A stretch of 64,000 nucleotides of DNA from Pseudomonas chlororaphis subsp. chlororaphis (GTDB taxonomy: Bacteria; Pseudomonadota; Gammaproteobacteria; Pseudomonadales; Pseudomonadaceae). The stretch is taken from NCBI RefSeq assembly GCF_003945765.1, contig NZ_CP027712.1, positions 4,340,001 to 4,404,000 of the forward strand, in the 5' to 3' direction. Positions 18,865 to 36,616 of this stretch are shown here, piece by piece (within the stretch, counting starts at the first letter, position 1; each line of letters begins with the position of its first letter). The notes beneath the pieces were generated by a model. That model was not told where the DNA came from. It did no database searches and saw only the letters and a list, made by a program, of their open reading frames with translations. The translations under genes and the position numbers were made by a program.

Positions 18865-20463
18865 TCAAAGCTTGCTGTCCAGCGCCACCAGCAAGGCCGC
18901 GTCCCGTCCGTAGATGTCCGGGGCATAGGACAGCTGGCCATGGCTGTCGGCTTGCGCCGTCCAGTACGTGAGCAGGATCGGTACCGGCGTCGATAGCCTG
19001 AACTCATGAGTGAGCCCGGTGCTCAGCAATTCGTCTGTGCGCACCCGTTCCGCCGGGCTCACCAGCAGATCGCGCAGCTGCAACGCATGCTCGACCCGCA
19101 CGCAGCCCGAACTGAAGGCCCTTGGCCCCTTGTTGAACAGCGCCTGGCTGGGCGTGTCGTGCAGGTACACCGAGAACGGGTTGGGGAAGCGGATCGCCAT
19201 CTGCCCCAGCGGGTTTCTCGGTCCGGCTTCCTGGCGCAGGAGAATATTGCCGGGGTTGTCCCAGTCGATATCCTCCACCGCCAGGGGATGCCCTTCGCTG
19301 TCGAGCACCTGCAGGTTCTGCCGATTGAGGAAGGACTGGTCGCGGCGAATTTCCGGCAGCTTGTCTTCGCGGAAAATGGTCGGCGGCACCGTCCAGGTCG
19401 GGTTCAGGGTCAGGCGCGTGACCTGGGATTTCAACAGTGGCGTCTGGCGCTCGGCACGCCCCACCTGGGTCCGGGTCTGCCAGACCGGCACGCCGCCCTG
19501 ATAGACGATCAACTGCGCCGCGGCCAGGTTGACCAGCAGGCTGTCGGGCTCCATGTCCTGCGCCAGCCAGCGAAAGCGTTCGAGGTTGATGCGCAGCTGT
19601 TCGCGGCGCATCTGCGGGCTGATGTTCAGTTCATTCAAGGTCCCCGCGCCGATCACCCCATCGGCTTGCAGCGAATGGCTGAGCTGGAAGCTTTTCACCG
19701 CACTCACCAGGTCGCTGCTGTAAAGGGTGTCGCCTTCGTTGGCGAGGGTGCCCAGGTACCCCTCCTTGAACAGCCGTTGCGCCAGTTCCGGCACTCGCGC
19801 GTCCTGCATCTGCGGACGCAATAGCGGCCCGTTGGGAAGGGGCTGCCAATGGGGCAACGCCAGCTGGCGCTGCTGGGCATACAGCTGGCGCAGGTTCTGA
19901 TATTGCTCGAGGCTCGGCCGCGCCAGCGCGAAGGCCGCCGGGATGTCCTGCAGGCCGGGCCCGGCGATGGCAAGCACCTGCGCCTGGCGATCCAGCTGTG
20001 AGGGATGGGCGTGCCACATCGGCTCGAAACGGGCCTGCGACAGACGGCCGTAATGCAGGTCATGCAGGGCTTGCAGGTAATGCTGGCTGAAGCTCAGGTC
20101 AGCGCACAGCGCGTCGCCCGCGAGCGCACTGGCCGGTGACCGGTAGTCGGCCGGGTCCAGGCCATCGTCGGCCAGTTGCTGCAACTGTGCCTGCAACGCC
20201 TCCAAACGTGCGCTGGACGACCAGACCGGCTGGTCACCCTGCTGTTGGTAAAAAGCCTGTAACAGGCTCTGGGCGGGAATGTCCAGGTGCACCGCCAACC
20301 CCGGACAGGCGGCGGACAATCGAGTGAATACCTGTTGCACAGGGTTCTCATGATCGACCGGTACATCCTGAGCAGTCGCGACCAACGGCGCAGCGAGCAG
20401 GAAAAGGCTCAAGTAACATGCGTGTTTTTTGAACAACTGCTTTACTCCAATCATGGCCATCAT
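18865..20463 (-). CDS. L,D-transpeptidase, YcbB/LdtD-like
   Basis: The roughly 532-residue exported protein has an N-terminal signal segment (YLSLFLLAAPLVATAQ), a scaffold domain, a peptidoglycan-binding repeat (LSHSLQADGVIGAGTLNELN) and a C-terminal YkuD domain. The catalytic block is HDTPSQALFNKGPRAFSSGC-VR, giving His and the S/T-x-G-C nucleophile. Such enzymes form 3-3 cross-links in murein using tetrapeptide donors. The start is uncertain: ATGs at 20463, 20460 and 20454 are in frame. It is head-to-head with a second, unrelated-family L,D-transpeptidase at 20578. Confidence 0.88.
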   Translation of the reverse strand: MMAMIGVKQLFKKHACYLSLFLLAAPLVATAQDVPVDHENPVQQVFTRLSAACPGLAVHLDIPAQSLLQAFYQQQGDQPVWSSSARLEALQAQLQQLADDGLDPADYRSPASALAGDALCADLSFSQHYLQALHDLHYGRLSQARFEPMWHAHPSQLDRQAQVLAIAGPGLQDIPAAFALARPSLEQYQNLRQLYAQQRQLALPHWQPLPNGPLLRPQMQDARVPELAQRLFKEGYLGTLANEGDTLYSSDLVSAVKSFQLSHSLQADGVIGAGTLNELNISPQMRREQLRINLERFRWLAQDMEPDSLLVNLAAAQLIVYQGGVPVWQTRTQVGRAERQTPLLKSQVTRLTLNPTWTVPPTIFREDKLPEIRRDQSFLNRQNLQVLDSEGHPLAVEDIDWDNPGNILLRQEAGPRNPLGQMAIRFPNPFSVYLHDTPSQALFNKGPRAFSSGCVRVEHALQLRDLLVSPAERVRTDELLSTGLTHEFRLSTPVPILLTYWTAQADSHGQLSYAPDIYGRDAALLVALDSKL

Positions 20464-20577
20464 TGTGATGGTCAACCTCGGCAGTGGCTGCGAAAAATCA
20501 TCCAACCACCTGTAACCAGAACTGCCAGGAGAGCGACAGGACGTCAGGAGCCAAAGTGACTGTGGGGACACTCTAGA

Positions 20578-21291
20578 ATGCTGACCTTCTTGCGCCGGCT
20601 CTGTCTGGCAATGACCACCCTAGGCGCGATCTGCAGCCCCGCGCTCGCCGCCAACAACACGACTCCGCTGCTTTACAACAGCCTCGCCCACGCCGCTCCA
20701 GAACTCAATCCCCAAGTGTTGAAAAGTGCCTTGAGCGCCATGCAATGCGCAGTCAACAGCGGCGCCAGGCAAGCCCGGCACCTGGCGGTCATCGACTATT
20801 CGCAACCTTCCACCGCCCGCCGCCTGTGGATCTTCGACTTGAATAAAAGAACCCTGGTGCTGCGCGACCTGGTCGCCCACGGGCAGAAATCCGGGGAGAA
20901 CTTCGCCACCCAGTTTTCCAATCGCATGGGCAGTTTCCAGTCCAGCCTCGGCCTGTTCCGCACCCAGGAAAGTTATGAAGGCAGCCACGGTTATTCGCTG
21001 CGCATGGACGGCCTGGAGCCAGGTTTCAATGACCTCGCCCGCGATCGGGATATCGTGATTCACGCGGCCGACTATGTGAGCCCTCTGTGGAGCCGACGCC
21101 AAGGGCGCATCGGCCGCAGCCTGGGTTGCCCGGCCGTGCGTCCGCAAGTGGCGCGCCAGGTGATCGACCGCCTCAAGGACGGTCAGTTCATGTTTTCCTG
21201 GTACCCCGACCAGCGTTGGCTGAAATCCTCGCCCTACCTCAACTGCCAGCCACGCCAGGTGGCCAGCATTGTCGCCGCCAGCGGCGGTTAA
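20578..21291 (+). CDS. Murein L,D-transpeptidase catalytic-domain protein (YkuD_2 family)
   Basis: The 237-residue protein has a signal peptide (MLTFLRRLCLAMTTLGAICS, cleavage after ALA) and the YkuD_2 domain. Visible blocks are HLAVIDYSQPSTARRLWIFD, the GSFQSSLGLFRTQESYEGSH region, IVIHAADYVS and the catalytic R-S-L-G-C-P-A. It should act in the periplasm on murein. It is divergent from the YcbB-like gene, with starts about 115 nt apart, suggesting shared control. The next gene (21304) converges on it with 12 nt between stops. Confidence 0.87.
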   Translation: MLTFLRRLCLAMTTLGAICSPALAANNTTPLLYNSLAHAAPELNPQVLKSALSAMQCAVNSGARQARHLAVIDYSQPSTARRLWIFDLNKRTLVLRDLVAHGQKSGENFATQFSNRMGSFQSSLGLFRTQESYEGSHGYSLRMDGLEPGFNDLARDRDIVIHAADYVSPLWSRRQGRIGRSLGCPAVRPQVARQVIDRLKDGQFMFSWYPDQRWLKSSPYLNCQPRQVASIVAASGG

Positions 21292-21303: not shown

Positions 21304-22662
21304 TTAACCGGCGGCCGAGGCCGCCGTTTCCGGCTCTTCGGGTATTTTGACGAAGATGCTGTACTTCGCCCCTTCCATCGCTTCGAAGGCGATGAGCTTG
21401 TCCACCAGCGGGCCGCTCAGCACCTTGCCGGCATTGAGCAACAGCATGCCATTGTCGGCATTCAGGTTGCGCGCCAGGGTCATGCCCGGGGCCAGGTCGC
21501 GCGTCGTCAGGACCCTGACCGTCGGATCGGCCAGGGTGACATCGCTCTGATAAGCCGCGCAGACGCCGACGAAATCCTCCACCAGGTCGGGGTCGTAGAG
21601 TTTGCCGGCGTATTTGCGAATGAACAGCAGCGCCTCATCGCTGTTCATCTGCCGTTCGAGTATCAGCCCGCGTTGCAGCTCGATGAAGTCCACGGCCAGC
21701 TTGAGCCAGCGCGAGCCCAGCGGAATGGCCTCGCCCTTGAGATGATCGGGAAAACCACTGCCATCCCAGCGTTCCTGGTGATGCAGGATGATGCGCGCCG
21801 CGTCCTTCATCGGCTCCAGGGTCATCAGCAGCGACTCGCTCTGCTTCGGGTAGGCCCGGTACAGGTCGCGCTCGTTGTGGTGCAGCAGGTCCGCGGGCGC
21901 GGTCATCATGCTGTCGGTCCAGCTCAGCTTGCCGATGTTGTACAGCGCGGCGGCCATAGTCATGTTGCGGCTGTCGGCTTCGTCCAGGCCATGGGTGATG
22001 CAATAGACGCGAATCAGCTCAATGATCTGCCGGTTGGTCTGCTTGGCCTTGGGCAGGCGCAGGTTGGCCAGCAGCGAAAACACCTCGGTACCGGTCACGT
22101 AGCTGCGCTTGAGCTCTTCATACGCCAGATCGAGCATGTCGGCGGTCTGTTGCAGTTCGGCGGTGCGCGCCGCCACATGCTTTTCCAGGGTCGAGTTGAG
22201 GGTTTTCAATTGCTCGTTCTGTTGCCGGGTCAGGGTTTCCAGACGCTGGCGCTCGCTTTCGGAATTGTGATGGGCCAGGGCCTGGCGCAGCGTCACCAGC
22301 ATGTCCTCGTCGTTCCAGGGCTTGCTGATATACCGATGGATCTGCCCTTCGTTGATGGCCTTGGCAATCAAGGTCATGTCGGCATAACCAGTGAGCAGGA
22401 TCCGCAGCGTCGATGGATAACGCTGATGGATATGGGCCAGCAAGGTCGCACCGTCCATGCTCGGCATGCGGGCGTCACTCATGACCACGTCGACCGGCCG
22501 TTGTTCGAGGATCTCCAGGGCCTTGGCACCGCTGTCGGCCAACAGGATGTCGTAAGGCTGGCTGCGTAACAGCCGACGAAGGCTATTGAGAATCGATTCC
22601 TCATCGTCGACCAGCAGTACCGTCGGTCTGTCCTGGGCTGTGCCCGCTGTATGTTCTTCCAT
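21304..22662 (-). CDS. Response regulator with degenerate HD-GYP ('YN-GYP') output domain
   Basis: The 452-residue protein has a receiver (residues about 13-130; acidic pair D19-D20, phosphoacceptor D63, K114), a coiled coil (about 135-185) and an HD-GYP-like domain. The metal-binding HD pair is replaced by Tyr-Asn (YNIGK, 241-242) and the usual 'HP' helix reads AYP; HHQERWDGSGFP is kept. This is the arrangement described for P. aeruginosa PA2572, where the YN-GYP domain lacks measurable phosphodiesterase activity. It probably binds partners rather than degrades c-di-GMP. It is divergent from the five-gene redox/c-di-GMP operon. Confidence 0.88.
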   Translation of the reverse strand: MEEHTAGTAQDRPTVLLVDDEESILNSLRRLLRSQPYDILLADSGAKALEILEQRPVDVVMSDARMPSMDGATLLAHIHQRYPSTLRILLTGYADMTLIAKAINEGQIHRYISKPWNDEDMLVTLRQALAHHNSESERQRLETLTRQQNEQLKTLNSTLEKHVAARTAELQQTADMLDLAYEELKRSYVTGTEVFSLLANLRLPKAKQTNRQIIELIRVYCITHGLDEADSRNMTMAAALYNIGKLSWTDSMMTAPADLLHHNERDLYRAYPKQSESLLMTLEPMKDAARIILHHQERWDGSGFPDHLKGEAIPLGSRWLKLAVDFIELQRGLILERQMNSDEALLFIRKYAGKLYDPDLVEDFVGVCAAYQSDVTLADPTVRVLTTRDLAPGMTLARNLNADNGMLLLNAGKVLSGPLVDKLIAFEAMEGAKYSIFVKIPEEPETAASAAG

Positions 22663-22779: not shown

Positions 22780-25152
22780 ATGCTCAAGGCCAAAATGGAC
22801 TGCATGTTCAGGAAGCAGGAAGGGAAGCCCGATGAGCTTATATACAAGGTGTCCGCACCGAGTTGGGGCACGCCGATGATGGCGTCGGCAGACCGGACCA
22901 ACCGGCGAATTCTGATCGTCGACGACACGACGTCGATCCATGAGGATTTTCGCAAGATCCTCGCCTGCACGGATGCCCCCGGGGACAGCCTCAGCGACGC
23001 CGAAGCCGCCCTGTTCGGTACGCCCGTCAGTGCCTCGCTGGAGCATTTTTTCCTCGACTCAGCGTTTCAGGGCCGGGAGGCGCTGGACAAGGTGCAGGCA
23101 GCGCTGGATCACGATGCGCCTTATGCCATGGCGTTCATCGACATGCGCATGCCGCCCGGCTGGGACGGCCTGGAAACCATCGAGCGGCTGTGGCAGGTCG
23201 ACCCCAAGCTGCAAATCGCCCTGTGCACCGCCTACTCCGACTATTCTTGGGAAGACATCGCCGAGCGCCTGCAACTGGGCGACCGCCTGCTGATCCTGAA
23301 AAAGCCCTTCGACGCCATCGAGATCCGCCAGATGGCCAGCGCCTTGACCGTCAAATGGCAGATGACCGAAGACGCCGAACTGAAAATGGACCAGCTGGAG
23401 CAAGCGGTCGAGGAACGCACCCGCGAGTTGGCCGACGCCAACATCATCGTGCAGAACAGCCCCACCATCCTCTATCGCCTGCGGGGCGAGCCATCGTTCA
23501 CGCTGATGTACATCTCCCACAACATCACCAAGTTCGGCCATGTGGCGGCGCAACTGGTGGCCTCGGCCGACTGGGCCCAGACCCTGATCCACCCCGACGA
23601 CCAGGCCAAGGTCAAGAACGCCATGCTGCGGATCCTCGATCGGGATGTGGCGGGAGCCTCCATCGAGTTCCGCATGCGCACCGGCGATGGTGCCTTTCGC
23701 TGGGTGGAAAACCGCTATATTCCGGTACGCAACGACCAGAGCCAATTGGTCGAGGTGGAAGGGATCATCCTCGACATTACCGAACGCAGGCTGGCCGAAG
23801 AAAAAATGGCCCTGATGGCCCGCACCGACAGCCTGACCGGGCTGGCCAACCGCGCCACCCTGATCGAGCGCCTGCATCAGGCATTCGCCGCGGCCCGACG
23901 GGGAGCCGCGCCCTTCGCGATGTTTTACCTGGACCTGGACCACTTCAAGCGCATCAACGACACCCTCGGCCACCCCATTGGTGACTTGCTGCTGCAGGAA
24001 GTGGCCCGGCGCATCAAGGCCTGCACCCGGGAAAACGATGTGGTGGCGCGCCTGGGCGGCGACGAGTTCGCGATCCTGCAACTGGACGTCGACGAGGCCA
24101 CGCATTGTGCCGCGCTGGCGACGAAAATCCGCGACACCCTGCTGCTCCCCTACTCCTTGGAAGGCAACGAGGTGCGCATCTCGGTGAGCATCGGCATCAG
24201 CCTCTACAGCCCGCAGACCCTGAGTGCCGACAGCCTGATGGCGCAGTCGGACATGGCGCTGTATCGCTCCAAGGACAAGGGCCGCAACCAGTTCCATTTC
24301 CACAGCGAGGAAATCAACCAGGAGGTCACGGAGCGGGTGACCCTGGCCAACGACCTGAAGCTGGCCCTGGAACGCGACGAACTGCACCTGCATTACCTGC
24401 CGGAAGTCGATCTCGGTACCGGCAGGATCCTCGGCATGGCGACCCAGGTTCGTTGGCTCCACCCCCTGCGCGGCTGGCTCGAGGCCGAGGACTTCATGCC
24501 CGCGGCCGAGAAGACCGGCATCGTCATCGCCCTCGGTCATTGGCTGCTGGACCAGGCCTGCCGGCAGATGCGCGCCTGGCGCGACCAGAACGTGGCACCG
24601 CCATTGATTGCGATCCATTTGTCCCTGGTCCAGCTCAAGACCGGGCCAGAACTGATCTACGACGTATTGCGCACCACCGCGCGCTGGGACCTGTGCCCGT
24701 GGGACCTGAGATTCGACGTGACCGAGGGCACCCTGGCCCAGACCAAGTGGACCCACAACGACATCCTGCCCAGGCTGTGCGAGCTGGGCGTGAAGATCGC
24801 CATCGACGATTTCGGCACCGAATATTCCTCGTTCGACTACCTCAAGACCTACAGGGTCAACCACCTCAAGCTTGCCCAGCGCTTTCTCGACAGCGCCAGC
24901 AGCGACCCGGACAACGCCATGACGCTCCGGGCCATCCTCAACTTCGCCCGCGAGGTGGGCATCGGGGTCACCGCTGAAGGGGTGGAAACCCAGGAGCAGC
25001 GTACGACCTTGATATCCAGCGGCACGTCACTGGGGCACTCGCTCGGTGCGGCGGTCGACAGCGACCAGGCTGGCGAACTGCTCAAGGCCAGGTCTGCTGC
25101 TGTGGATGGCAGCACCAGGTCGGCGGATCCGACGTCGGAGAATTTCAGGTGA
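22780..25152 (+). CDS. Response regulator with PAS, GGDEF (intact) and EAL (degenerate) domains
   Basis: The 790-residue protein has an enlarged receiver (residues about 42-185; DD 48-49, phosphoacceptor D121, K174), a PAS/PAC unit (about 220-345), GGDEF (about 350-515) and an EAL-like domain (about 525-775). GGDEF is intact (GGDEF at 426-430, YLDLDHFKRIND metal site) and has an RxxD inhibitory site (REND) five residues upstream. In the EAL domain the EAL triplet reads ATQ, the NVSA Asn is His and the ELEITES motif reads RFDVTEG, so it is probably inactive. I expect a phosphorylation-controlled diguanylate cyclase. GGGGGAG precedes ATG 22780; a start at 22876 is possible. Confidence 0.9.
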   Translation: MLKAKMDCMFRKQEGKPDELIYKVSAPSWGTPMMASADRTNRRILIVDDTTSIHEDFRKILACTDAPGDSLSDAEAALFGTPVSASLEHFFLDSAFQGREALDKVQAALDHDAPYAMAFIDMRMPPGWDGLETIERLWQVDPKLQIALCTAYSDYSWEDIAERLQLGDRLLILKKPFDAIEIRQMASALTVKWQMTEDAELKMDQLEQAVEERTRELADANIIVQNSPTILYRLRGEPSFTLMYISHNITKFGHVAAQLVASADWAQTLIHPDDQAKVKNAMLRILDRDVAGASIEFRMRTGDGAFRWVENRYIPVRNDQSQLVEVEGIILDITERRLAEEKMALMARTDSLTGLANRATLIERLHQAFAAARRGAAPFAMFYLDLDHFKRINDTLGHPIGDLLLQEVARRIKACTRENDVVARLGGDEFAILQLDVDEATHCAALATKIRDTLLLPYSLEGNEVRISVSIGISLYSPQTLSADSLMAQSDMALYRSKDKGRNQFHFHSEEINQEVTERVTLANDLKLALERDELHLHYLPEVDLGTGRILGMATQVRWLHPLRGWLEAEDFMPAAEKTGIVIALGHWLLDQACRQMRAWRDQNVAPPLIAIHLSLVQLKTGPELIYDVLRTTARWDLCPWDLRFDVTEGTLAQTKWTHNDILPRLCELGVKIAIDDFGTEYSSFDYLKTYRVNHLKLAQRFLDSASSDPDNAMTLRAILNFAREVGIGVTAEGVETQEQRTTLISSGTSLGHSLGAAVDSDQAGELLKARSAAVDGSTRSADPTSENFR

Positions 25153-27017
25153 GCCCGTTATCCGTGGTGCCCAATCGGCGAATTCTGATCATCGACGACA
25201 CACCGGCGATCCATCAGGACTTTCGCAAGATTCTCAGCCCCGAAGACGAAGGGCCTCTGGGCAACACCGAAGCCTTGCTGCTGGGCGCCAGCCGCAGACC
25301 CCATCAGCACTTCGAGCTTGATTCGGCCTACCAGGGCGAGGAAGCCGTGGAACTGGTCAAGCGCGCCCAGGCCGAAGGCCGGCCGTATGCCCTGGCCTTT
25401 ATCGACATGCGCATGCCACCCGGCTGGGATGGCCTGCAGACCATCGAGCATCTGTGGAAAACCGATCCGCAGTTGCAGATCGCCCTATGTACTGCGTTCT
25501 CCGATTACTCATGGGAAGCCATGGCCGAACGTATCGAGTTCGGCGACCAGCTGCTGATCCTGAAAAAGCCGTTCGACAGCCTCGAAATTCGCCAGATGGC
25601 CAGCGCCCTGACCTGGAAATGGCAGCTGGCGCAGGACGCGGCAAGCAAGATGCGCAACCTGGAACAGACCATCGAGGAACGGGTCCAGGAACTGCTGAGC
25701 GTGTCGCACCTGCTGCACTACGATGTGCTCACCGGACTGCCCAACAGTACCTTGCTCGGTGATCGCCTGACCCAGCATCTGTCCCAGTCCCGCCGCCATG
25801 ACCGCCAGTTGGCGGTGATGTTCATCGGCCTGGACCGTTTCAAGCGCATCAACAACGCACTCGGGCACCCGGCGGGAGACGAGATGCTCAAGCTCGTCGC
25901 CCGCAGCCTGGCGACCACGGTGCGCGAAACCGACTCGGTATTTCGCTACGGTTCGGACGAGTTCGTGGTGATTATCGGCGACATCCTGCACCCACAGCAG
26001 ACCCGAGGGGTGGCCGAAAAACTCCTGGCCGCCATCAATACCCCTCATTCCGTGGCGGGCCACGACCTGACGGTCACCGCCAGTCTGGGCATCAGCATCT
26101 ATCCCTACGATGGCGCCGATGCCGTAACGCTGATCAAGAACGCCGAGACGGCCATGCGCAACGTCAAGGACTGCGGCCCCAACAACTTCAGCTTTTTCAT
26201 CGAAGACATGAACCTGCGCGCGCGCCAGCAGCAGACCCTGGAAACCGGCCTGCGCCTGGCGTTGCAGCGTGAGGAGTTCGTCCTGCACTACCAGCCCAAG
26301 CTGGACCTGGCGCGGGGCACGGTGGTCGGTGCCGAGGCGCTGGTGCGCTGGAACCGGCCCGGGTATGGCTGGGTGTTCCCCTCGGACTTCATCCCGGTGG
26401 CCGAAGACAGCGGGCTGATCGTCCCCCTCAGCCAATGGGTATTGCGCCGTGCCTGCCTGCAATCGCAGGCCTGGCAAGCGCAGGGCCTGCCGCCCATCTG
26501 CATGTCGGTGAATGTGTCGGCCATCGACTTCCGTCAGCACGACTATGTCGAACGCCTCACCCGCACGCTGGCCGAGACCGGGCTCGACCCGACGTTGCTG
26601 GAACTGGAAATCACCGAAAGCGTGCTGATGCAGAACGTCGACGCCACCATCGCCACGCTCCATGCCATCAAGCAGCTGGGGGTGCGCCTGGCCATCGACG
26701 ACTTTGGCACCGGCTACTCGAGCTTGAGCTACCTGCAGAAATTCCCGGTCGACGTGTTGAAGATCGACCAGTCGTTCGTGCGTGACCTGGGCACCGACAG
26801 CAACGACGCGAAACTGGTCAGCAGCATCATCGACCTGGGTAAAAGCCTCAACCTGAGCATCATCGCCGAAGGCGTGGAGACCGCCGAACAACTGGACTTT
26901 CTCAAGCGTCACCACTGCGAGGAAGGCCAGGGTTTCTACTTCAGCAAGGCCGTGGAGCCCGAGGCATTCGCCCGCTTCCTGACCGAATCCCAGCGACCTC
27001 ACCTGCCCCATCCATGA
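25149..27017 (+). CDS. Response regulator with GGDEF (degenerate) and EAL (intact) domains
   Basis: The 622-residue protein starts at a GTG that overlaps the previous stop (GTGA). It has the same enlarged receiver (DD 16-17, D86, KKPF), a GGDEF-like domain (about 190-355) and an EAL domain (about 370-615). GGDEF has lost key residues: GSDEF at 268-272, and the first metal Asp of F-x-D-x-D is Gly227 (FIGLDRFKRIN). EAL is complete: EALVRW at 396, SVNVSA, LELEITES, AIDDFGTGYSS, KIDQSF, IAEGVET. It should be a c-di-GMP phosphodiesterase, the mirror image of its upstream neighbour. Confidence 0.9.
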   Translation: MSPLSVVPNRRILIIDDTPAIHQDFRKILSPEDEGPLGNTEALLLGASRRPHQHFELDSAYQGEEAVELVKRAQAEGRPYALAFIDMRMPPGWDGLQTIEHLWKTDPQLQIALCTAFSDYSWEAMAERIEFGDQLLILKKPFDSLEIRQMASALTWKWQLAQDAASKMRNLEQTIEERVQELLSVSHLLHYDVLTGLPNSTLLGDRLTQHLSQSRRHDRQLAVMFIGLDRFKRINNALGHPAGDEMLKLVARSLATTVRETDSVFRYGSDEFVVIIGDILHPQQTRGVAEKLLAAINTPHSVAGHDLTVTASLGISIYPYDGADAVTLIKNAETAMRNVKDCGPNNFSFFIEDMNLRARQQQTLETGLRLALQREEFVLHYQPKLDLARGTVVGAEALVRWNRPGYGWVFPSDFIPVAEDSGLIVPLSQWVLRRACLQSQAWQAQGLPPICMSVNVSAIDFRQHDYVERLTRTLAETGLDPTLLELEITESVLMQNVDATIATLHAIKQLGVRLAIDDFGTGYSSLSYLQKFPVDVLKIDQSFVRDLGTDSNDAKLVSSIIDLGKSLNLSIIAEGVETAEQLDFLKRHHCEEGQGFYFSKAVEPEAFARFLTESQRPHLPHP

Positions 27018-27997
27018 AGTTGTGCCTGGTAAGGATACCGACCATGTCGTCACTTGCATTACTCCTTTCGGCCAACCTGCTGCTCGCTCCAGGCGCCGAG
27101 GCCGCGCCATTGGAAGGACCGCTCAACCCCCTCCCCGCAGCACCGGCGCTGGACAGCAAGCGGGTCGAACTGGGACGACGCCTGTTCAACGACCCGCGCC
27201 TGTCGGTGAACAACAGCCTGTCGTGCGCCAGTTGTCATCGCCTTGATCGAGGCGGTGCCGATACCGTTCCGCACTCCCTGGGTTTCGATGGCAAGCCCGT
27301 GGCGGTCAATACCCCGAGCGTGTTCAACGCCAGCCTGAATTTCCACCAGTTCTGGGACGGTCGGGCCGAAACCCTGGAAGACCAGGTGCACATCGTGGTG
27401 CAGAGCCCCAGCGAAATGGGCAGCGACTGGAAAGTCGTGGTACAGCGCATCGCCGACGACCCGGCCTATCGCACCACCTTCGCCGATGCCTACCCCGGTG
27501 GTGTGTCCCAGGCCAACATCCAGGGCGCCCTGGCCGATTACGAACGCACCCTGCTCAGCGCCAACTCGCGCTTCGACCGATACCTGGCGGGCAACACCGA
27601 GATCCTCGACATCGAGGAAAAGTACGGCTACCAGCGCTTCCAGGAATACGGCTGCATCGCCTGTCACCAGGGGGTGAATATCGGCGGCAACATGTTCCAG
27701 AAGTTCGGCGTGCTCGGCGACTACTTCGCGGCCCGGGGCAACCCTACCGAGGCCGACCTGGGGCGCTTCAACGTCACGGGCGAAGAAGACGACCGCAATG
27801 TGTTCAAGGTGCCGAGCCTGCGTAACGTCGCGGTCACGGCGCCGTACTTCCACGACGGTTCGCAAGCCACCCTCGAAGGCGCCGTGGCGGTGATGTTCAA
27901 GTACCAGCTGGGACGTACGCCGTCCGAGGAAGACAAACGCCTGATCGTCAAATTCCTCAAGACCCTGACCGGCGAATGGGAAGGCAAACCTTTATGA
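27014..27997 (+). CDS. Di-heme cytochrome c peroxidase (CcpA/MauG superfamily)
   Basis: The 327-residue protein overlaps the previous gene by ATGA. It has a signal peptide (SSLALLLSANLLLAPGAEA) and two CxxCH heme sites, CASCH at 71-75 and CIACH at 214-218. Other family blocks are ELGRRLFNDPRLSVNNSLSC, QFWDGRAETLEDQ and KVPSLRNVAVTAPYFHDGS. The family reduces periplasmic hydrogen peroxide with electrons from small cytochromes. Its place inside a signalling operon is unusual and suggests a sensing role, or a detoxification role tied to the kinase encoded next; that is inference. Confidence 0.92.
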   Translation: MKLCLVRIPTMSSLALLLSANLLLAPGAEAAPLEGPLNPLPAAPALDSKRVELGRRLFNDPRLSVNNSLSCASCHRLDRGGADTVPHSLGFDGKPVAVNTPSVFNASLNFHQFWDGRAETLEDQVHIVVQSPSEMGSDWKVVVQRIADDPAYRTTFADAYPGGVSQANIQGALADYERTLLSANSRFDRYLAGNTEILDIEEKYGYQRFQEYGCIACHQGVNIGGNMFQKFGVLGDYFAARGNPTEADLGRFNVTGEEDDRNVFKVPSLRNVAVTAPYFHDGSQATLEGAVAVMFKYQLGRTPSEEDKRLIVKFLKTLTGEWEGKPL

Positions 27998-29805
27998 AAG
28001 TATCCCGTCGCGTAAGCATCCTGTTGCTCGCCGCCCTGGCGGTATTGATGGCTTCGATCCTGCTCTTTCTCTACCTCAAGTCCAGGTCCGACCAGACCGT
28101 GACCTACACCGAATCGCGCGACCTGATCCGCCAGATCAAGCAGCAGGACTCGCTGTGGGAAAACGAAATACTCAAGGCCAGGGTGGCCATCACCCACAAC
28201 TACGATCCGCTGGTTTCACCCCTGGGGGAAATGACACGCCTGTGGCAGAAATTCGACTCGATGGAGGCGCAGAACCAGCGCAACGATTCGCCGCTGTGGC
28301 GCAATGCCCATGACGGCTACCTGAACGCGATAAAGGAAAAGACCCGGCTGGTGGAACAGTTCAAGTCGCACAACTCCGTGCTGCGCAACTCCCTGGCCTT
28401 CCTGCCGACCGCCGAGGACGATATCCAGCAAGAGCTCGCCCAACTGCACGACGCGGACAAACTGCAACTGCAGAACATCGCCACCGATACCTACGACCTG
28501 TTGCTCAGCAGCCTGGAGTTCGCCCAGGTCACCTCCGACGACAGGGCCGCGGATATCCTGGTGGGCCTGAACAAGCTGACGGTCAACAAGGAGCGCTTGC
28601 CCACGGACTTCCATGGCCTGATCGATACCCTCAGCAACCACGTCGGGCTGATCCTGCGCGAGCAACCCAAGGTCAACCGCCTGCTCGAGGAAATCGAAGT
28701 GGTGCCGGTCGACGAGCGCCTGGACGACATCACCGTCCTGCTCAACCGCGACCAGCAACAGGCCGAGGCCGTCGACCAGCGATACCATTTCTACCTGCTG
28801 CTGTTTTCCGCGCTGCTGGTGCTGCTGTTGATCTGGCTGGGCATTCGCCTGATCCGCAGTTTTGCCGAGATCAACCAGATGAACCGCGCCCTGGTGGCCG
28901 CCAACGACGAACTCGAACAACGGGTCGAAGAGCGCACGCGCCAGCTCAAGGACACCCAGAGCGAACTGCTCGACACCGCCCGCCAGGCGGGCATGGCGGA
29001 AATCGCCACCAATGTCCTGCACAACGTCGGCAACGTGCTCAACAGCGTGAACATCTCCGCCGACCTGGTCAGCCGCAAGCTGCGCAACAGCAAGGCCCAG
29101 GGGCTGGGCAAGGCGATGCAGTTGATCAACCAACACAAGCAGGACCTGGGCAGCTATCTCACCGAGGACGAAAAGGGCAAATTGCTGCCCGGCTACCTGA
29201 ACCAGTTGGTCGAGGCCATCGACCTGGAACAGCAAGGCATGACCGAGGAGCTGAGCCAACTGAGCAAAAGCGTCGATCACATCAAGGACATCGTCGCTAC
29301 CCAGCAATCCTATGCGGGCGCCAGCAGCCTGCTGGAACCGCTGTCGGTCAGCGAACTGCTCGAAGATGCGCTGCGCATGAACTCCGGCGCCCTCACCCGC
29401 CATCATGTGACCGTGCGCAAGGAATACGCCGACGTACCACTGATCATGGGCGACAAGCATCGCCTGCTGCTGATCCTGATCAACCTGATCAGCAACGCCA
29501 AGTACGCCATGTCCGACCTGTCCAACCAGACGCGCAACATGACCCTGGCGGCAGCGGTGGTCGACGGCGAGACCTTGCAGATCAGCGTGCGCGACGAAGG
29601 CGAAGGCATCGCTCCGGAAAACATGACCCGCATCTTTGCCCACGGCTTCACCACCCGCAAGGAAGGCCATGGGTTCGGCCTGCACAGTTGCGCCCTGGCG
29701 GCCATCGAGATGAATGGCCACCTGACCGCCCACAGCGACGGCCCGGGCAAAGGCGCGCTGTTCGTCCTGCAGATCCCCCTGATCACCGCCGAGGTTGAGG
29801 CATGA
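27994..29805 (+). CDS. Membrane sensor histidine kinase with helical periplasmic domain
   Basis: The 603-residue protein starts at an ATGA overlap with the peroxidase stop. It has two membrane helices (residues about 8-28 and 264-287) that flank a roughly 235-residue, all-helical periplasmic domain resembling the DAHL sensor type (VEQFKSHNSVLRNSLAFLPT). The cytoplasmic part has a coiled coil, an H-box with H343 (ATNVLHNVGNVLNSVN) and an ATPase domain (LINLISNAKYAM; DEGEGIAP; GHGFGLH). It lacks a receiver. Its natural partners are the three receiver proteins of the same operon. Confidence 0.9.
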   Translation: MKVSRRVSILLLAALAVLMASILLFLYLKSRSDQTVTYTESRDLIRQIKQQDSLWENEILKARVAITHNYDPLVSPLGEMTRLWQKFDSMEAQNQRNDSPLWRNAHDGYLNAIKEKTRLVEQFKSHNSVLRNSLAFLPTAEDDIQQELAQLHDADKLQLQNIATDTYDLLLSSLEFAQVTSDDRAADILVGLNKLTVNKERLPTDFHGLIDTLSNHVGLILREQPKVNRLLEEIEVVPVDERLDDITVLLNRDQQQAEAVDQRYHFYLLLFSALLVLLLIWLGIRLIRSFAEINQMNRALVAANDELEQRVEERTRQLKDTQSELLDTARQAGMAEIATNVLHNVGNVLNSVNISADLVSRKLRNSKAQGLGKAMQLINQHKQDLGSYLTEDEKGKLLPGYLNQLVEAIDLEQQGMTEELSQLSKSVDHIKDIVATQQSYAGASSLLEPLSVSELLEDALRMNSGALTRHHVTVRKEYADVPLIMGDKHRLLLILINLISNAKYAMSDLSNQTRNMTLAAAVVDGETLQISVRDEGEGIAPENMTRIFAHGFTTRKEGHGFGLHSCALAAIEMNGHLTAHSDGPGKGALFVLQIPLITAEVEA

Positions 29806-31208
29806 ACAACCCGATAAACCGGCGCATCCTGCTGATTGACGACACCCCGGCGATCCACGACGACTTCCGCAAGATCCTCACGCCCAAGACCGGCGACAGC
29901 GCCGACCTCGATGCGATGGAAAGCGCGCTGTTCGGCAGCGCGCCAAAAACCGCCGCCACGGTGTTCGAACTGGATTCGGCCTACGGTGGCCAGGAAGGCC
30001 TGGGCAAACTGCTGGAGGCGGCGGGCAAGGGGCAGCCCTATGCCCTGGCCTTCGTCGACATGCGCATGCCCGATGGCTGGGACGGCGCGCAAACCATCGA
30101 AGAGTTGTGGAAGCACGACCCACTGCTGCAAGTGGTGGTGTGCACCGCCTACTCCGACTATTCCTGGGACGAGTTGCTCGATCGCCTGAACGGCCACGAC
30201 CGGCTGCTGATCCTGAAAAAGCCCTTCGACAATATCGAAGTCCAGCAGATGGCCAATACCCTCACCACCAAATGGGAAATGACCATGCGCGCGCAGCTGC
30301 AGATGAGCGAGCTGGAAGAACGGGTGGAGCAACGTACCCTGGCGTTCAAGCAGGCCAGCGCCGCGCTGCGACGGGAAATCGACGAGCGCAAGTTGCTGGA
30401 AAGCCAACTGGTGCAATCGGAAAAGCTCGCCTCCCTGGGCCAGCTGGCCGCCGGGGTCGCCCATGAAATCAACAACCCGGTCGGCTTCATTTCCTCCAAC
30501 CTCGGCGCCCTGGACAACTACTTCAAGCGCCTGCAGGAGATGCTCGAGGCTTACGGCAATGCCGAAACCGGGATCGGCGCCAGCGAGCTGCGCGATCGGC
30601 TGAAACAGTTGCGCACGGATATCGAGCTGGATTTCCTCCTCGAGGACATTCCGCTGCTGATCAAGGAATCCAAGGACGGCATCGGCCGGGTCAGCCAGAT
30701 CGTCAAGGATCTCAAGGACTTTTCCCGGGTCGATTCGACCCAGGAATGGCAATGGGCGAACCTGCAACAGGGCATCGACTCGACCCTGAACATCGTCGCC
30801 GCCGAGATCAAGTACAAGGCCGACGTGATCAAGGAGTACGCCGAGCTGCCGGAGGTCGAGTGCCTGCCTTCGCAGATCAACCAGGTGGTGATGAACCTGA
30901 TCGTCAACGCCGCCCAGGCCATGGGCAACGAACGGGGCACCATCACCCTGCGCAACGGCGTCGAGGGCGAGAACGTGTGGATCGAAGTGGCCGACAATGG
31001 CTCGGGCATCCCGCCGGACAGCCTGCAGAAAATCTTCGACCCGTTTTTCACCACCAAACCCGTGGGCCAGGGCACGGGGCTGGGGCTGTCGCTGTCCTAC
31101 GGCATCGTCAAGAAACACCGCGGCGACATCTCGGTGCGCAGCGAGGTCGGTGTCGGCACCACCTTCCGCGTCGAGCTTCCCGTGCATCAGAGCAGAAAGG
31201 CCGGCTGA
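29802..31208 (+). CDS. Hybrid protein: N-terminal receiver plus histidine kinase
   Basis: The 468-residue soluble protein starts at an ATGA overlap. Its N-terminal receiver (DD 13-14, D86, LKKPF) is closely related to those of the two c-di-GMP proteins upstream, including the same insertion after the first helix. A coiled coil leads to a kinase core with H221 ([12 protein letters not shown]), N-box ([10 protein letters not shown]), G1 (DNGSGIPPD) and G2 ([10 protein letters not shown]). It could pass the signal onward to an unlinked response regulator, since it ends the operon. A kinase whose own receiver is N-terminal is typical of relay intermediates. Confidence 0.9.
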
Positions 31209-31513
31209 ACGCCCCCGCACTCCAGCCACAGGCTCGACACCACTGCTGCTTCTGTAGGAGCCAGGCTTGCCGGCGATCCAAGCGACGCGGCACGCCGGGG
31301 CATGCCGCAGGCCCGATCTCTTGTATGATGGCGCGCCTCAAGAATGGGTCGCCGATTTCGTCTTGCCAATGACCACCGGAGTACATCCGGCCTGACGCCT
31401 TCAGGGCACACACGCTTCCCCCGTCTTAAACAGCACGACGCTTTCCCGAGCGCGCCTGGCCCTTTGTGCCTGGTATTCGCCGGGGCCGGGATCGCCATCG
31501 TCGAGGAGTTTTC
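31209..31513. other. Gene-free interval with one REP-like unit
   Basis: This is 305 nt between the hybrid kinase and the TonB-dependent receptor. A REP-like unit (tgtaggagccaggcttgcc and following bases, 31253-31290) lies near its left end and may mark the 3' end of the operon. A TATGAT at 31324-31329 could be a -10 element for the receptor. No clear Fur box is visible. Confidence 0.5.
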
Positions 31514-33697
31514 ATGGATATGCTTTACCGGGCCTCCCGCCAGGGGCTGCCCGCCCCGCGGTTCGCGCGCAATCTGCTGAGCCTGCTGCTGGCCGGTGCC
31601 GCGCCCGTGGCCCAGGCCGCCGAGACCGAACTGCCGGCCCTGACCGTGACCGGCGAAGACCGCTCCGGTTATCAGGCCAGCAGCGCCGCGGTTGGCGGTT
31701 TCGAGGCAGCTCCCCTGCTCGATGCCCCCGCCTCGATCGCGGTGATCAATGAAGACTTGATCAAGGACCAGCAGGCCCGCCTGCTCAGCGAGGTGCTGAA
31801 GAACGACGCCTCGGTCGGCGAAAGTTATGCGCCGGTCGGCTACTACGAGAATTTCACGGTGCGCGGCTTCTCCCTGAATGCCGCCAACAGCTATCGGATC
31901 AACGGCCGCAGCATCACCGGCGAGCAGAACGTCGGCCTGGAAAACAAGCAGCAGGTGGAATTGCTCAAGGGGCTGAACGGCCTGCAGAGCGGCGTCAGCG
32001 AGCCCGGCGGGCTGATCAACTACGTGACCAAGCGCCCCACCGACGTGCGCTCGGTCACAGTCTCTACCGACGATCGCGGCAGCGGCTATGTGGCCACCGA
32101 TGTCGGTGGCTGGTTCGGCAGCGAGCAGCAGTTCGGGCTGCGCGCCAACCTGGCCCACGAGGACATCCACTCCTATGTCGAACACACCAATGGCCAGCGC
32201 GACTTCGCCTCCCTGTCCTTCGACTGGAACATCAGCCCCGACGCCCTGCTGCAACTGGACATCGAGTACCAGACCAAGGAACAGCGCTCGGCCCCGGGTT
32301 ATCAATTGCTCGGCGGCTCCAGCCTGCCGCACCACGCCTCGCCGAAAAAGCTCCTGGCGCACCAGAGCGGCTCGAAGCCGGTCGGCACTGACGCGCTGAA
32401 CCTCAACGGCAACTTCGAGTACCGCTTCAACGACCAGTGGAAAGGCAACCTCAGCGCCTCGCGCAGCCAGGTGGTGATCGATGACTACAGCTCGTTCGCC
32501 TGGGGCTGCTACGGTGCCGCCAGTTGCGCCGGCGCGGCGGTGCCCAATCACTTCAGCCCCGAGGGCGACTACGACATCTACGATTTCCGCAGCCCGGACG
32601 ATACCCGGCGCAACGACGAGGTCCAGGCCGTCCTCAGCGGCAACTTCGACACCGGCGGCCTGGGCCACGAACTCAGTATCGGCACCAGCGCATTCCGCCG
32701 CGTGGTGGACAAACGAGACCCGATCAACCAGATGATCGGTAGCGCCAACATCGACGGCGAGCCAGCGGATTTCGCCCGCTACGACGGACCGCTCAACGAC
32801 TCCTACCGCCGCCTGGACAGCCGCCAGTACGGCCTGTTCTTCAACGACCGCATCAGTTTCAACGAACATTGGCAGACCGTGCTCGGCGGGCGCGAGGTAC
32901 GCCTGGACGAGGAAACCTTCGACAGCCAGGGCGATACCACCCGCCACACCCAGCGTTATGTGTTCCTGCCCCAGGCCGCGCTGATCTACAAGCCGGTGCA
33001 GAACCTGGCGCTGTACACCCGCTACAGCAAGGGCCTGTCCCTGGGTGGCGAGGCGCCGTGGTTCGCCAGCAATGCCTTTGAAATCCTCGCGCCTACCGTG
33101 TCGCGGCAGATCGAGGCCGGCATCAAGTATGACTGGCAGCGCATCAGCCTGGCCGCGGCGCTGTTCCAGATCCGCCAGGCCTACCAATACTCCCGGCCGA
33201 ATGGCGACGGCACCTTCACCTTCACCCAGCAGGGCGAACAGAAGAACACCGGCCTGGAACTCTCGGCCAATGGCTGGGCCAGCCAACGCCTGCAGGTCTC
33301 GGGCAGTGTCGCGGCGATCCGCGCGCGGGTCACCGGCAGCGACACCCCGGCGTACGAAGGTCACCAGGCGCTCAACGTGCCGACCCTGCGCGCCAGCCTC
33401 TACGGCGACTACGCCCTGCCCTGGTTCGACGGCCTGGCGCTGCTCGGCGGCGTGCAGTACAGCGGTCGCAAGTACGCCAACCGCGAGGGTGAGGTGCAGA
33501 CTGGCAGCTACGCCGTGTTCAACATCGGCAGCCGCTACAGCACCCGCATCGACGGTTACGACACCGTGTTCCGGCTGACCGTGGACAACCTGTTCGACAA
33601 GCGCTACTGGCGTGACGCCGGTGAATACATGGGCGATGGCTACCTGTTCCAGGGCGCGCCCCTGACCGCGCGGTTGAGCGCCTCGATCAACTTCTGA
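31514..33697 (+). CDS. TonB-dependent siderophore-type outer-membrane receptor
   Basis: The 727-residue protein has a signal peptide ending AAPVAQA, a plug domain (residues about 50-170: DAPASIAVINEDLIKDQQAR, GFSLNAANSYRINGRSI, GVSEPGGLINYVTKRPT) and a beta-barrel ending in Phe (LTARLSASINF). There is no N-terminal signalling extension, so it should be a simple transporter. GAGGAG precedes ATG 31514. No siderophore biosynthesis, FecR or sigma factor gene is adjacent. The substrate is not readable, but plug features fit ferric-siderophore receptors. Confidence 0.9.
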   Translation: MDMLYRASRQGLPAPRFARNLLSLLLAGAAPVAQAAETELPALTVTGEDRSGYQASSAAVGGFEAAPLLDAPASIAVINEDLIKDQQARLLSEVLKNDASVGESYAPVGYYENFTVRGFSLNAANSYRINGRSITGEQNVGLENKQQVELLKGLNGLQSGVSEPGGLINYVTKRPTDVRSVTVSTDDRGSGYVATDVGGWFGSEQQFGLRANLAHEDIHSYVEHTNGQRDFASLSFDWNISPDALLQLDIEYQTKEQRSAPGYQLLGGSSLPHHASPKKLLAHQSGSKPVGTDALNLNGNFEYRFNDQWKGNLSASRSQVVIDDYSSFAWGCYGAASCAGAAVPNHFSPEGDYDIYDFRSPDDTRRNDEVQAVLSGNFDTGGLGHELSIGTSAFRRVVDKRDPINQMIGSANIDGEPADFARYDGPLNDSYRRLDSRQYGLFFNDRISFNEHWQTVLGGREVRLDEETFDSQGDTTRHTQRYVFLPQAALIYKPVQNLALYTRYSKGLSLGGEAPWFASNAFEILAPTVSRQIEAGIKYDWQRISLAAALFQIRQAYQYSRPNGDGTFTFTQQGEQKNTGLELSANGWASQRLQVSGSVAAIRARVTGSDTPAYEGHQALNVPTLRASLYGDYALPWFDGLALLGGVQYSGRKYANREGEVQTGSYAVFNIGSRYSTRIDGYDTVFRLTVDNLFDKRYWRDAGEYMGDGYLFQGAPLTARLSASINF

Positions 33698-34363: not shown

Positions 34364-36010
34364 TTACAGGGCCATGTCAGCCGACGGGTTGCTCACTGGC
34401 GCCTTTGGCTTTTCAGCCGCAGGTTGCGCAGGTGCAGCCATCTGGCCGATGGCCGGTGGCGGAGTCAATTGCAGCACTTCGCTGGTGTAGGCCCACTCTT
34501 GAGCGACACGCTCAGGACTGCCGTTGAGCTGGGTACCGTAGCTCGGCACGATCTGGTGCAGCTTCGCCTGCCAGGCCGGAGTCGCGACCTTGTCCTTGAA
34601 GACCTTCTCCAGCACGCTGAGCATGATCGGCGCGGCGGTCGAAGCACCTGGCGAAGCACCCAGCAGGCCGGCAATGCTGCCGTCCTTGGCGCTGACGATC
34701 TCGGTGCCCAGTTTCAGCACGCCACCCAGCTGCTCGTCGCGCTTGATGATCTGCACGCGCTGGCCGGCCTGCCACAGACGCCAGTCTTCAGCCTTGGCGT
34801 TAGGGAAGTACTCTTTCAGGGCATTCAAGCGATCTTCATCCGACAGCATCAGTTGGCCGGCGAGGTACTCGACCAGCGGGTACTCCTTGATGCCGACCTT
34901 GGTCATGGGCCAGATGTTGTGAGTGGTGGTAGTGGTCAGCAGGTCGAGGTACGAACCTTCCTTGAGGAACTTGGTGGAGAAGGTCGCGAACGGGCCAAAC
35001 AGGATCACGCGCTTGCCGTCCAGCACGCGGGTGTCCAGGTGCGGAACCGACATCGGTGGAGCGCCAACCGACGCCTTGCCGTAGGCCTTCGCCAGGTGCT
35101 GCTCGGCGATCGCCGGGTTCTCGGTCACCAGGAACGAGCCGCCCACCGGGAAACCGGCATATTCCTGGGCTTCAGGAATGCCCGACTTCTGCAGCAGGTG
35201 TAGGGCACCGCCGCCGGCGCCGATGAACACGAACTTGGCGTCGGTCTGGGTTTCGGTACCGTCTTTCAGGTTCTTGTACACCACGCGCCAGGAGCCATCT
35301 TCGTTACGCTTGATGTCTTCCACTTCGCTCGACAGCTTGAGCGAGAAGTTCGGCTGGGCTTTCAGGTGGCCGACGAACTGGCGGGTGATCTCGCCGAAGT
35401 TCACGTCGGTGCCGAGCGGCGACCAGGTGGCGGCGATCTTCTGCTTCGGATCGCGCCCTTGCATCATCAGCGGGACCCACTGCTTGATCTGCTCCGGGTC
35501 TTCGGAGTACTGCATGCCAGCGAACAGCGGGCTCGCCTGCAGCGCTTCGTAGCGTTTCTTCAGGAACTTGATGTTGTCATCGCCCCACACGAAGCTCATG
35601 TGCGGAGTGGAGTTGATGAACGAACGCGGGTCCTTCAGGACATTGTTCTTGACTTGCCACGACCAGAACTGGCGGGAAATCTGGAACGCTTCGTTGATCT
35701 CGATGGCCTTGGCGATCTCGACCTTGCCGTCCTTGTTTTCCGGGGTGTAGTTCAGCTCCGCCAGGGCAGAGTGACCGGTACCGGCGTTGTTCCAGCCGTT
35801 CGAGCTTTCTTCGGCAACGCCGTCGAGACGCTCGACCATTTCCATCGACCAGCCCGGCTCCAGCTCATTGAGCCAGACACCCAGGGTCGAACTCATGATG
35901 CCGCCACCGATGAGCAGCACATCCACTTTCTTGGTCTCGGCGGCGTACGCGGAGCTGAGCCCCATCGTCATCGCCAAGCCCAGCAGGGCCGTGTTCACTT
36001 TTTTCAACAT
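34364..36010 (-). CDS. mqo: Malate:quinone oxidoreductase
   Basis: The 548-residue FAD enzyme oxidises malate to oxaloacetate and passes electrons to the quinone pool at the inner membrane, replacing or supporting NAD malate dehydrogenase. It has the FAD-binding start ([20 protein letters not shown]) and conserved blocks such as [20 protein letters not shown] and [19 protein letters not shown]. The N-terminus has a signal-like segment ([15 protein letters not shown]), seen in other Pseudomonas Mqo proteins. The start at 36010 has a TAGGAA site. It is monocistronic, with its own terminator. Confidence 0.95.
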
Positions 36011-36616
36011 ACAGTAGTTCCTACGATAGAACGCCATCCGCCCCCCCATTCTCGATCATCAGTCGCCCCGGCACCGCCATGGGTTCCCGCACTCAGAAGA
36101 ACTGAAGGGTGGGCACACAAGGCCGACATGACACCATCGACCTCAGTTTATATGTCGCTCCTGCGCTGACTTCTTATTCGCTATTGGCTTCAGCTACTTG
36201 AGTGACACTATTTTGTTGGGGCGCCTTCGGACAGCGTCGATCGACGGTCCGAAACGCCCGCTAAAACCACATTCCCATAGAGAGACTAGTCGGGTGTAAC
36301 CAAAGGAGTGAGTCAACAACACCCGGTACTACGATCGGCCTGCTGCCAACGCCCTCGATCACCGCCTGACAGCGGCAAGGCCACGGGTATCGCATACAGG
36401 GATCGCCCCCAACCCTGGCAGCCCTCCTGCTGAAAACGGACATAATGGCCATCATGGGTGGTGGCTAACGCGCCATTGTCTACTGGACGGATAAAGCCGT
36501 CAAAAAAACTGTCAGATTTGTCCTGTTTTTATGCAGAAAAGGACCTTGATGATTCAAGAGTTCTCCTGGATGCGAGCAAGGTGAGGCCCGGACAAGACCC
36601 GGCGAATACCCGGCAC
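36011..36616. other. Long gene-free interval upstream of mqo
   Basis: About 600 nt separate the mqo start from the terminator at 36617. I found no frame with a good ribosome site and acceptable codon use. The stretch must hold the mqo promoter and possibly a long leader. No repeat or strong hairpin stands out. Confidence 0.5.

Follow-up and report, generated by a model that had tools for sequence, protein, structure and literature searches.

A Pseudomonas locus pairing a di-heme peroxidase with a DAHL receptor suggests a branched phosphorelay to cyclic di-GMP

Results

Organization and conservation of the locus

We analysed a 64,000-nucleotide (nt) window of the Pseudomonas chlororaphis subsp. 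chlororaphis genome (contig NZ_CP027712.1, positions 4,340,001 to 4,404,000; positions below are those of the window), focusing on a locus that joins a peroxidase gene, two kinase genes and genes of cyclic di-GMP (c-di-GMP) signalling. The source genome is that of a 6.8-Mb Pseudomonas, its nearest named records being Pseudomonas sp. NFIX28 and P. chlororaphis PCL1601 (95% and 91% identity in protein D, respectively). An initial annotation of this DNA had described a five-gene operon with four consecutive 4-nt overlaps. Five open reading frames (ORFs), here A–E, do lie at those coordinates, and the letters at the A/B, B/C, C/D and D/E junctions (GTGA, ATGA, ATGA and ATGA, respectively) agree, each start overlapping the preceding stop by 4 nt. 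The unit is nevertheless one of six genes: R (21304–22662, minus strand), missed by that annotation, is divergent from A and usually conserved with the operon.

Pfam assigns A (22780–25152; A–E are all on the plus strand) a receiver-PAS-GGDEF-EAL architecture and B (25149–27017) a receiver-GGDEF-EAL architecture. C (27014–27997) is a CCP_MauG protein whose N terminus, judged by eye, resembles an export signal. D (27994–29805) places a DAHL domain (28090–28779) between two membrane stretches, again judged by eye, ahead of a HATPase kinase domain, and E (29802–31208) is a receiver-HisKA-HATPase protein. R has a canonical receiver followed by a degenerate HD-GYP domain. A probably starts downstream of the ATG at 22780, since many orthologs align only from residue 32–41; the true start would lie near 22876, making the divergent promoter region longer. 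Promoter and terminator scans were dropped as evidence, having returned 0 promoter-like sites and 7 terminator-like sites where 7.3 were expected.

A full-length ortholog of D (≥57% identity) occurs in 38 of 99 Pseudomonas genomes, the source genome counted. All six genes are present in the order R, A, B, C, D, E in 25 of the 37 other stretches, so that within the genus the genes are retained as one unit, the point on which the initial annotation had wanted a check. A is missing in eight of the 37 and A together with B in two; one stretch (L059) holds no E or R and another (L060) no B or R, and in this count the end of the stretch cuts R in L027 and A of L037 matches in two pieces. A scan across named genomes recovered 69 loci, of which 68 belong to Pseudomonas. 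The six genes are single matches in 47, and several of the remaining loci lack A or have split matches. E is missing in five of the 68 (L093, L123, L139, L143 and L147), which all keep B, C and D; R is missing in four of these, and L139 retains an R remnant of ~40 residues. C stands directly before D in 37/37 stretches. C and D are the constant part of the locus. A–B and E–R form two arms, each of which can be lost without the other, and E and R go together.

One inserted receiver in front of three outputs

The receivers of A (22900–23394), B (25173–25652) and E (29817–30293) belong to one class with an insertion, and they are exactly the three matches to this class in the source genome. Pairwise identities are 57–67%, and all three share the residue at 80 of 154 columns, with better conservation in helix 1 (8/10) and in the LLILKKPFD loop (9/9). 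The shared receiver noted earlier is therefore real and specific, although 'near-identical' was too strong a term for it. A structural model of the E receiver (mean predicted local distance difference test score, pLDDT, 84.9) has the normal fold plus an extra helix between helix 1 and strand 2 (residues 29–39), this insert being modelled at low confidence (pLDDT 62–66). Among the matches listed, the closest solved structures are ordinary receivers, except for one complex I entry.

In a quick tree of 92 receivers, which has several long outgroup branches, the A, B and E receivers of Pseudomonas form one group (support 90), within which those of E form one group (95) and those of A and B another (95). 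The A and B receivers of L059 group together, which suggests local copying or exchange. Outside this locus the class is joined to several outputs, GGDEF-EAL proteins and kinases among them. Within the locus, Pfam agrees with the earlier description of three differing outputs behind the shared receiver, namely c-di-GMP enzymes in A and B and a kinase in E.

Catalytic state of A, B and R

We called catalytic states from sequence, taking residue roles in GGDEF, EAL and HD-GYP domains from general knowledge of these families. The GGDEF motif of A (24055–24069) is intact in the source genome, where it reads RENDVVARLGGDEF, with an RxxD site ahead of it, and GGDEF is found in all five of the commonest ortholog patterns (72/79). 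Its EAL position reads ATQ in the source genome; in the five commonest patterns (n=53), 46 orthologs read EAQ and 7 read EAL. Likewise, at least 55 of 79 orthologs have Lys in place of the metal-binding Asn of this EAL domain and at least 6 retain Asn, counting the five commonest patterns. B has the converse arrangement, with GSDEF in place of GGDEF and an EAL domain in which the whole set (EAL at 26334–26342, N, E, DD, K, E and Q) is intact; EAL is kept in 100/100 orthologs and G[SA]DEF in 87/100 (five commonest patterns). The 'split' c-di-GMP enzymes of the initial annotation are thus borne out by these motifs. R reads YN and GSGFP at its HD and GYP positions, respectively, and at both lacks the residues of an active HD-GYP phosphodiesterase. 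Asn replaces the HD aspartate in 99/99 R orthologs (YN or HN), and GSGFP or GTGFP is found in 85/99 (five listed patterns). From these motif states across orthologs we predict that A synthesizes c-di-GMP, that B degrades it and that R has a regulatory and no enzymatic role.

A peroxidase gene directly ahead of DAHL receptors

C has two c-heme motifs, CASCH (27224–27238) and CIACH (27653–27667), and is the sole match of its kind in the source genome. Its best solved matches are 9qdt (260 bits), 3o5c (241) and 1iqc (240), in a range of 195–260 bits for bacterial cytochrome c peroxidases (bCCPs) against at most 95 for MauG. By its motifs and bCCP-type sequence C is a di-heme cytochrome c peroxidase (CCP), for which peroxide reduction is predicted. 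Assignment to MauG or MbnH was rejected: C scores 182 bits against the MbnH-family model TIGR04039 (cut-off 362.85) and 143 against the MauG model TIGR03791 (cut-off 443.85). The redox enzyme recognized earlier in the operon is one half of a pair, with the DAHL domain, that recurs across the phylum.

The DAHL domain of D scores 172.8 bits against PF19443 (gathering score 38). Its model matches the sensor fold of TorS along the full length of the domain, unrelated helical bundles matching far less well, and TorS has been solved in complex with TorT. We surveyed 40 distant DAHL loci outside the genus, the first 20 drawn from 28 non-Pseudomonas matches and the other 20 hand-chosen from later matches (42–145 bits). 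A CCP gene lies directly upstream on the same strand in 38 of them, at spacings of −38 to +53 nt, and the overlap is exactly 4 nt in 20, overlap lengths being approximate where ORF starts in relatives were set mechanically. Both CxxCH hemes and Met294 are kept in 39/39 aligned DAHL-linked CCPs. The outputs behind the CCP-linked DAHL domains vary, comprising kinases, hybrid kinases, GGDEF and GGDEF-EAL; DAHL is joined to GGDEF at L224:2922-5378 and L253:3634-4974 and to GGDEF-EAL at L236:2476-5505, each with a CCP gene upstream. Since the CCP–DAHL linkage is kept and the fold is that of TorS, a sensor with a partner protein, the CCP is probably a co-sensor of D, by analogy with that system. The pairing of a peroxidase with a receptor could represent a novel type of redox sensor.

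The D-type kinase and the inserted receiver co-occur

The H-box of D (29020–29034) reads HNVGN, which is kept in 106/106 D orthologs. D is the single kinase of its class in the source genome (639 bits; next match, 54). A search of solved structures with the D kinase profile returned no match covering the H-box half, and a protein search with D gave generic names only, among the 120 matches listed.

Phylum counts come from fixed draws of 398 (or 269) genomes. In many genomes only the best first-look candidates were scored, so that counts of D-class kinases, inserted receivers, NosR proteins and DAHL domains are lower bounds. A receiver-profile search found the inserted receiver in 25/398 genomes. 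D kinase-domain matches that cover the H-box half, taken as those whose start precedes profile position 30, a limit chosen once the list was known, fall in 17 genomes of the same-size draw with the same genome labels, and the inserted receiver is present in 17/17 (hypergeometric P=3e-24, with the threshold set post hoc and relatedness not corrected). When D-kinase matches of ≥91 bits are taken instead, 21 of 22 genomes have the receiver; the remaining one, G124, still shows a partial match to it (5e-21), sharing a contig with its kinase. Conversely, the receiver-bearing genomes with no strong kinase match (G319, G325, G337 and G361) have a weaker one, of 54–90 bits, beside the receiver. A D-class kinase is found in 23 of 27 non-Pseudomonas stretches with the inserted receiver, being absent in L152, L154, L176 and L180; HN[VIA]GN was recognized in 17 of the 23, the pattern not being found in the other six. 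'D-class' here denotes a profile score and 'E-type', used below, a single-sequence search score, both against our own queries and not curated families. On these sequence comparisons, the HNVGN kinase domain of D and the inserted receiver of A, B and E go together as classes. The earlier proposal that one kinase serves three receivers fares well to this extent: D and the A, B and E receivers are the only members of their classes in the genome, and the classes co-occur across the 398 genomes.

Some relatives hold more such kinases. The 99 Pseudomonas genomes include 13 that hold further D-class kinases (≥330 bits), 27 in total. The operon is present in each of the 13, and all 35 inserted receivers of those genomes sit in it. 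Ten of the 27 have a DAHL domain. Five of the other 17 were scanned with Pfam, giving two ETR1_N-type N termini, one hybrid kinase and two proteins with no input domain over the cut-off, and one more of the 17, in L060, adjoins a FIST gene. These findings suggest that orphan D-class kinases feed the operon receivers in some species. Orphan kinases with an ethylene-receptor-like ETR1_N domain occur at L204:3541-4806 and L211:3787-5064, and in the operon variant at L060:2571-11655 the interval from D to E holds a FIST gene plus another D-class kinase, which looks soluble, bringing nitric oxide (NO)-type and peroxidase-type input together at one locus.

E and R resemble a NosK–NosR pair

R scores 595 bits against the NosR-family model NF053512 (cut-off 400). 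The H-box of E is HEINNP, and E orthologs read HE[IV]NNP in 100/101 (five listed patterns). NosR-family proteins at 1e-60 or better occur in 27/398 genomes, 22 of them over the cut-off. We fetched 20 of 28 NosR matches as loci outside the operon; four others are operon loci, and G432, G414, G292 and a second G460 match were left out. An E-type kinase (158–370 bits) lies within 2.2 kb, mostly adjacent, in 17 of these 20, or in 16 of 18 when L199 and L200, which fall under the NosR cut-off, are set aside. One of them, L194, has a FIST gene between NosR and the E-type kinase, the order of nosRPK; there is no adjacent FIST gene in the other 16.

In Burkholderia pseudomallei, NosK, which has an H-E-I-N-N motif, phosphorylates NosR, a degenerate HD-GYP protein, in vitro (PMC12570481). 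The NosK motif resembles that of E, a likeness of motif and not of direct alignment to a named NosK. The initial annotation had placed a further relay after E. That relay is part of our reading; its target R, of the family that pairs with the kinase type of E, had been overlooked.

Rearranged loci also bear on this leg. G096 and G057 (L061 and L062) encode a direct fusion of DAHL to an E-type kinase, C and R being its neighbours, and neither genome has a match to the inserted receiver anywhere at 1e-10. In our reading these fusions are the same pathway minus its splitter. At L168 and L172 an E-type kinase with a receiver adjoins a NosR-like receiver that carries GGDEF-EAL, in our view the same bridge with a different output.

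Discussion

A branched phosphorelay with a peroxidase-coupled receptor

The best explanation of this locus, to which we assign a probability of roughly 0.6, is a branched phosphorelay headed by a peroxidase-coupled receptor. C would act in the periplasm. Depending on peroxide or redox state, it would bind or act on the TorS-like DAHL domain of D and so set the activity of the HNVGN kinase domain. D would then phosphorylate receivers of its own partner class, in the cyclase A, the phosphodiesterase B and the kinase E. Phosphorylation of the E receiver would tune the NosK-type kinase of E, which would in turn phosphorylate R. R, as a probably non-enzymatic HD-GYP protein, would act by binding a c-di-GMP enzyme, which may be B or another such enzyme by analogy with HnoD. 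E would thereby bridge two otherwise separate kinase–receiver pairs.

Several observations weigh against this scheme. Ten of ten D paralogs in Pseudomonas (36–39% identity in DAHL, nine measured) have no CCP at their locus, nor was one present in the stretches of L249 and L250, whose DAHL proteins are ~1,190 residues long and which are the sole exceptions among the 40 distant loci. Glu at position 134 of C is replaced in 7/39 DAHL-linked CCPs, and not all of these may be active peroxidases; C itself could be just a co-produced enzyme. Helix 1 of the A receiver departs from the shared motif in many orthologs (for example, DFAKIL), which is odd if the docking surface for D is strictly shared, and some A orthologs have a less degenerate EAL domain (the 7/53 that read EAL). 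Three of the 20 NosR loci (L190, L191 and L199) lack an E-type kinase. Lastly, D is kept in the five named loci and in L059 where E and R are gone; since D persists in their absence, its retention does not depend on the E–R leg.

Alternative explanations

Several orphan D-class kinases, and not D alone, could set the receivers, making the operon a hub in which the peroxidase is one of many inputs. This would extend the branched phosphorelay, and we regard it as a tentative but serious possibility, somewhat short of an even chance. The restriction of the 27 further kinases to 13 operon-bearing genomes, the location of all 35 receivers and the variety of N termini (DAHL, ETR1_N type, hybrid kinase, FIST neighbour) speak for it. 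On the other hand, D is the sole kinase of its class in the source genome, and two of the 27, those in L059 and L060, are located within the operon locus.

A plainer view of C makes it a peroxide-detoxifying enzyme that is merely co-expressed, the DAHL domain binding a small molecule itself, as do McpS-type relatives of the fold. Mere co-expression would not explain a fixed position in 38 of 40 distant loci with varied outputs, some of them kinase-free, nor would detoxification fit a pairing that is still kept where Glu134 is replaced. We judge this view unlikely.

Slightly less probable again is that D phosphorylates A and B only, E being an independent kinase with an autoregulatory receiver, so that two parallel pathways, and not a relay, run from the locus. 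Receivers fused to kinases can act in cis, the kinase type of E pairs with R elsewhere independently of D, and E and R disappear jointly from loci that retain C, D and B. However, the receiver of E belongs to the class that accompanies D-type kinases, and its phosphorylation residues are kept. Moreover, in G022 (L058), which lacks A and B, the sole inserted receiver is that of E, so E is the only class partner that D has there.

That C makes or destroys a ligand read by DAHL, for example by oxidizing a periplasmic small molecule, and has no contact with D would account for the same gene linkage and has ligand-binding relatives of the fold in its favour, but the 4-nt overlap with the receptor gene (20/40) and the protein partner of TorS fit direct contact better, and we consider it the least probable of these explanations.

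Relation to known systems

Having proposed a branched phosphorelay, we compared it with characterized networks. The initial annotation knew of no characterized system of this make-up. We likewise recognized none with the exact set in the open-access literature searched, but two networks come close in logic. One is NosP–NosK–NosR. It resembles the operon in that R exceeds the NosR cut-off and that the kinase type of E lies near NosR in 17/20 loci; NosR of nosRPK systems is also a degenerate HD-GYP protein (PMC12570481). It differs in that the operon has no FIST gene, E has an N-terminal inserted receiver, a CCP–DAHL sensor feeds an extra kinase and two more c-di-GMP proteins are on the relay. 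A plain NosP system was rejected as an identity for the locus: Pfam finds no FIST domain in the six proteins, FIST being seen in L194 and in the operon variant L060.

The other is the Shewanella network of HnoK/HnoS, HnoB, HnoC and HnoD, in which, in the sections of the report we consulted, kinase output branches to three response regulators and HnoD, lacking phosphodiesterase activity, suppresses the EAL protein HnoB (PMC6335343). Branching to three regulators that include an EAL phosphodiesterase and a degenerate HD-GYP protein is common to both systems. The Hno network differs in its signal, NO acting through HnoK, and those sections mention no CCP or DAHL and name no cyclase or second relay kinase among the regulators. 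Pfam finds no H-NOX sensor among the six operon proteins, to which the H-NOX search was confined.

R may also be likened, by description and not by sequence comparison, to P. aeruginosa PA2572, a receiver–YN-GYP protein that still affects phenotypes with no detectable phosphodiesterase activity; the consulted parts of its report describe no such operon around it (PMC3411652).

The input has fewer parallels. TorT–TorS, beside which ChvE–VirA may be placed, differs in that TorT is a binding protein, where the proposed DAHL partner is a di-heme peroxidase. C is like other bacterial di-heme cytochrome c peroxidases in its two c-hemes and conserved bCCP segments and unlike them in sitting directly before a DAHL receptor gene. 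We found no sensory role for a bCCP, and recognized no description of the operon, of CCP with DAHL or of the HNVGN kinase class, in the open-access literature, to which the search was limited, subscription papers lying outside it. We consider the logic a variant of the Hno and NosRPK networks, and the CCP–DAHL pairing and the dedicated splitter class new.

A peroxidase–DAHL module

More broadly, CCP and DAHL could constitute a general sensory module of the phylum, an idea for which we see the odds as evenly balanced. The peroxidase would detect, through heme redox or its peroxide-reacted state, and the DAHL protein would transduce, being plugged into kinases, hybrid kinases, cyclases and cyclase-phosphodiesterases. 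CCPs without Glu134 may then be sensors only. In Pseudomonas a dedicated HNVGN kinase and the inserted receiver class would stand behind the module as a splitter, in some species serving as a hub for orphan kinases. If so, the DAHL domain gains a likely input, and bCCP, the textbook detoxifying enzyme, becomes a sensor component across the phylum. Periplasmic peroxide or respiratory redox state would be linked to c-di-GMP and hence to the surface life of plant-associated pseudomonads. The locus would also be a natural example of how duplicating a single receiver type can connect one kinase to several outputs, and of a second kinase–receiver pair inserted into an existing two-component path.

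Flanking genes

Beyond R lie two head-to-head L,D-transpeptidase genes (18865–20571 and 20578–21291), their ORFs 6 bp apart; one encodes YkuD with scaffold and peptidoglycan-binding domains and the other YkuD_2. E is followed by a TonB-dependent siderophore receptor gene (31466–33697), which around the 69 named loci was matched only in L083, the nearest relative. Malate:quinone oxidoreductase (Mqo) is encoded on the minus strand at 34364–36049.

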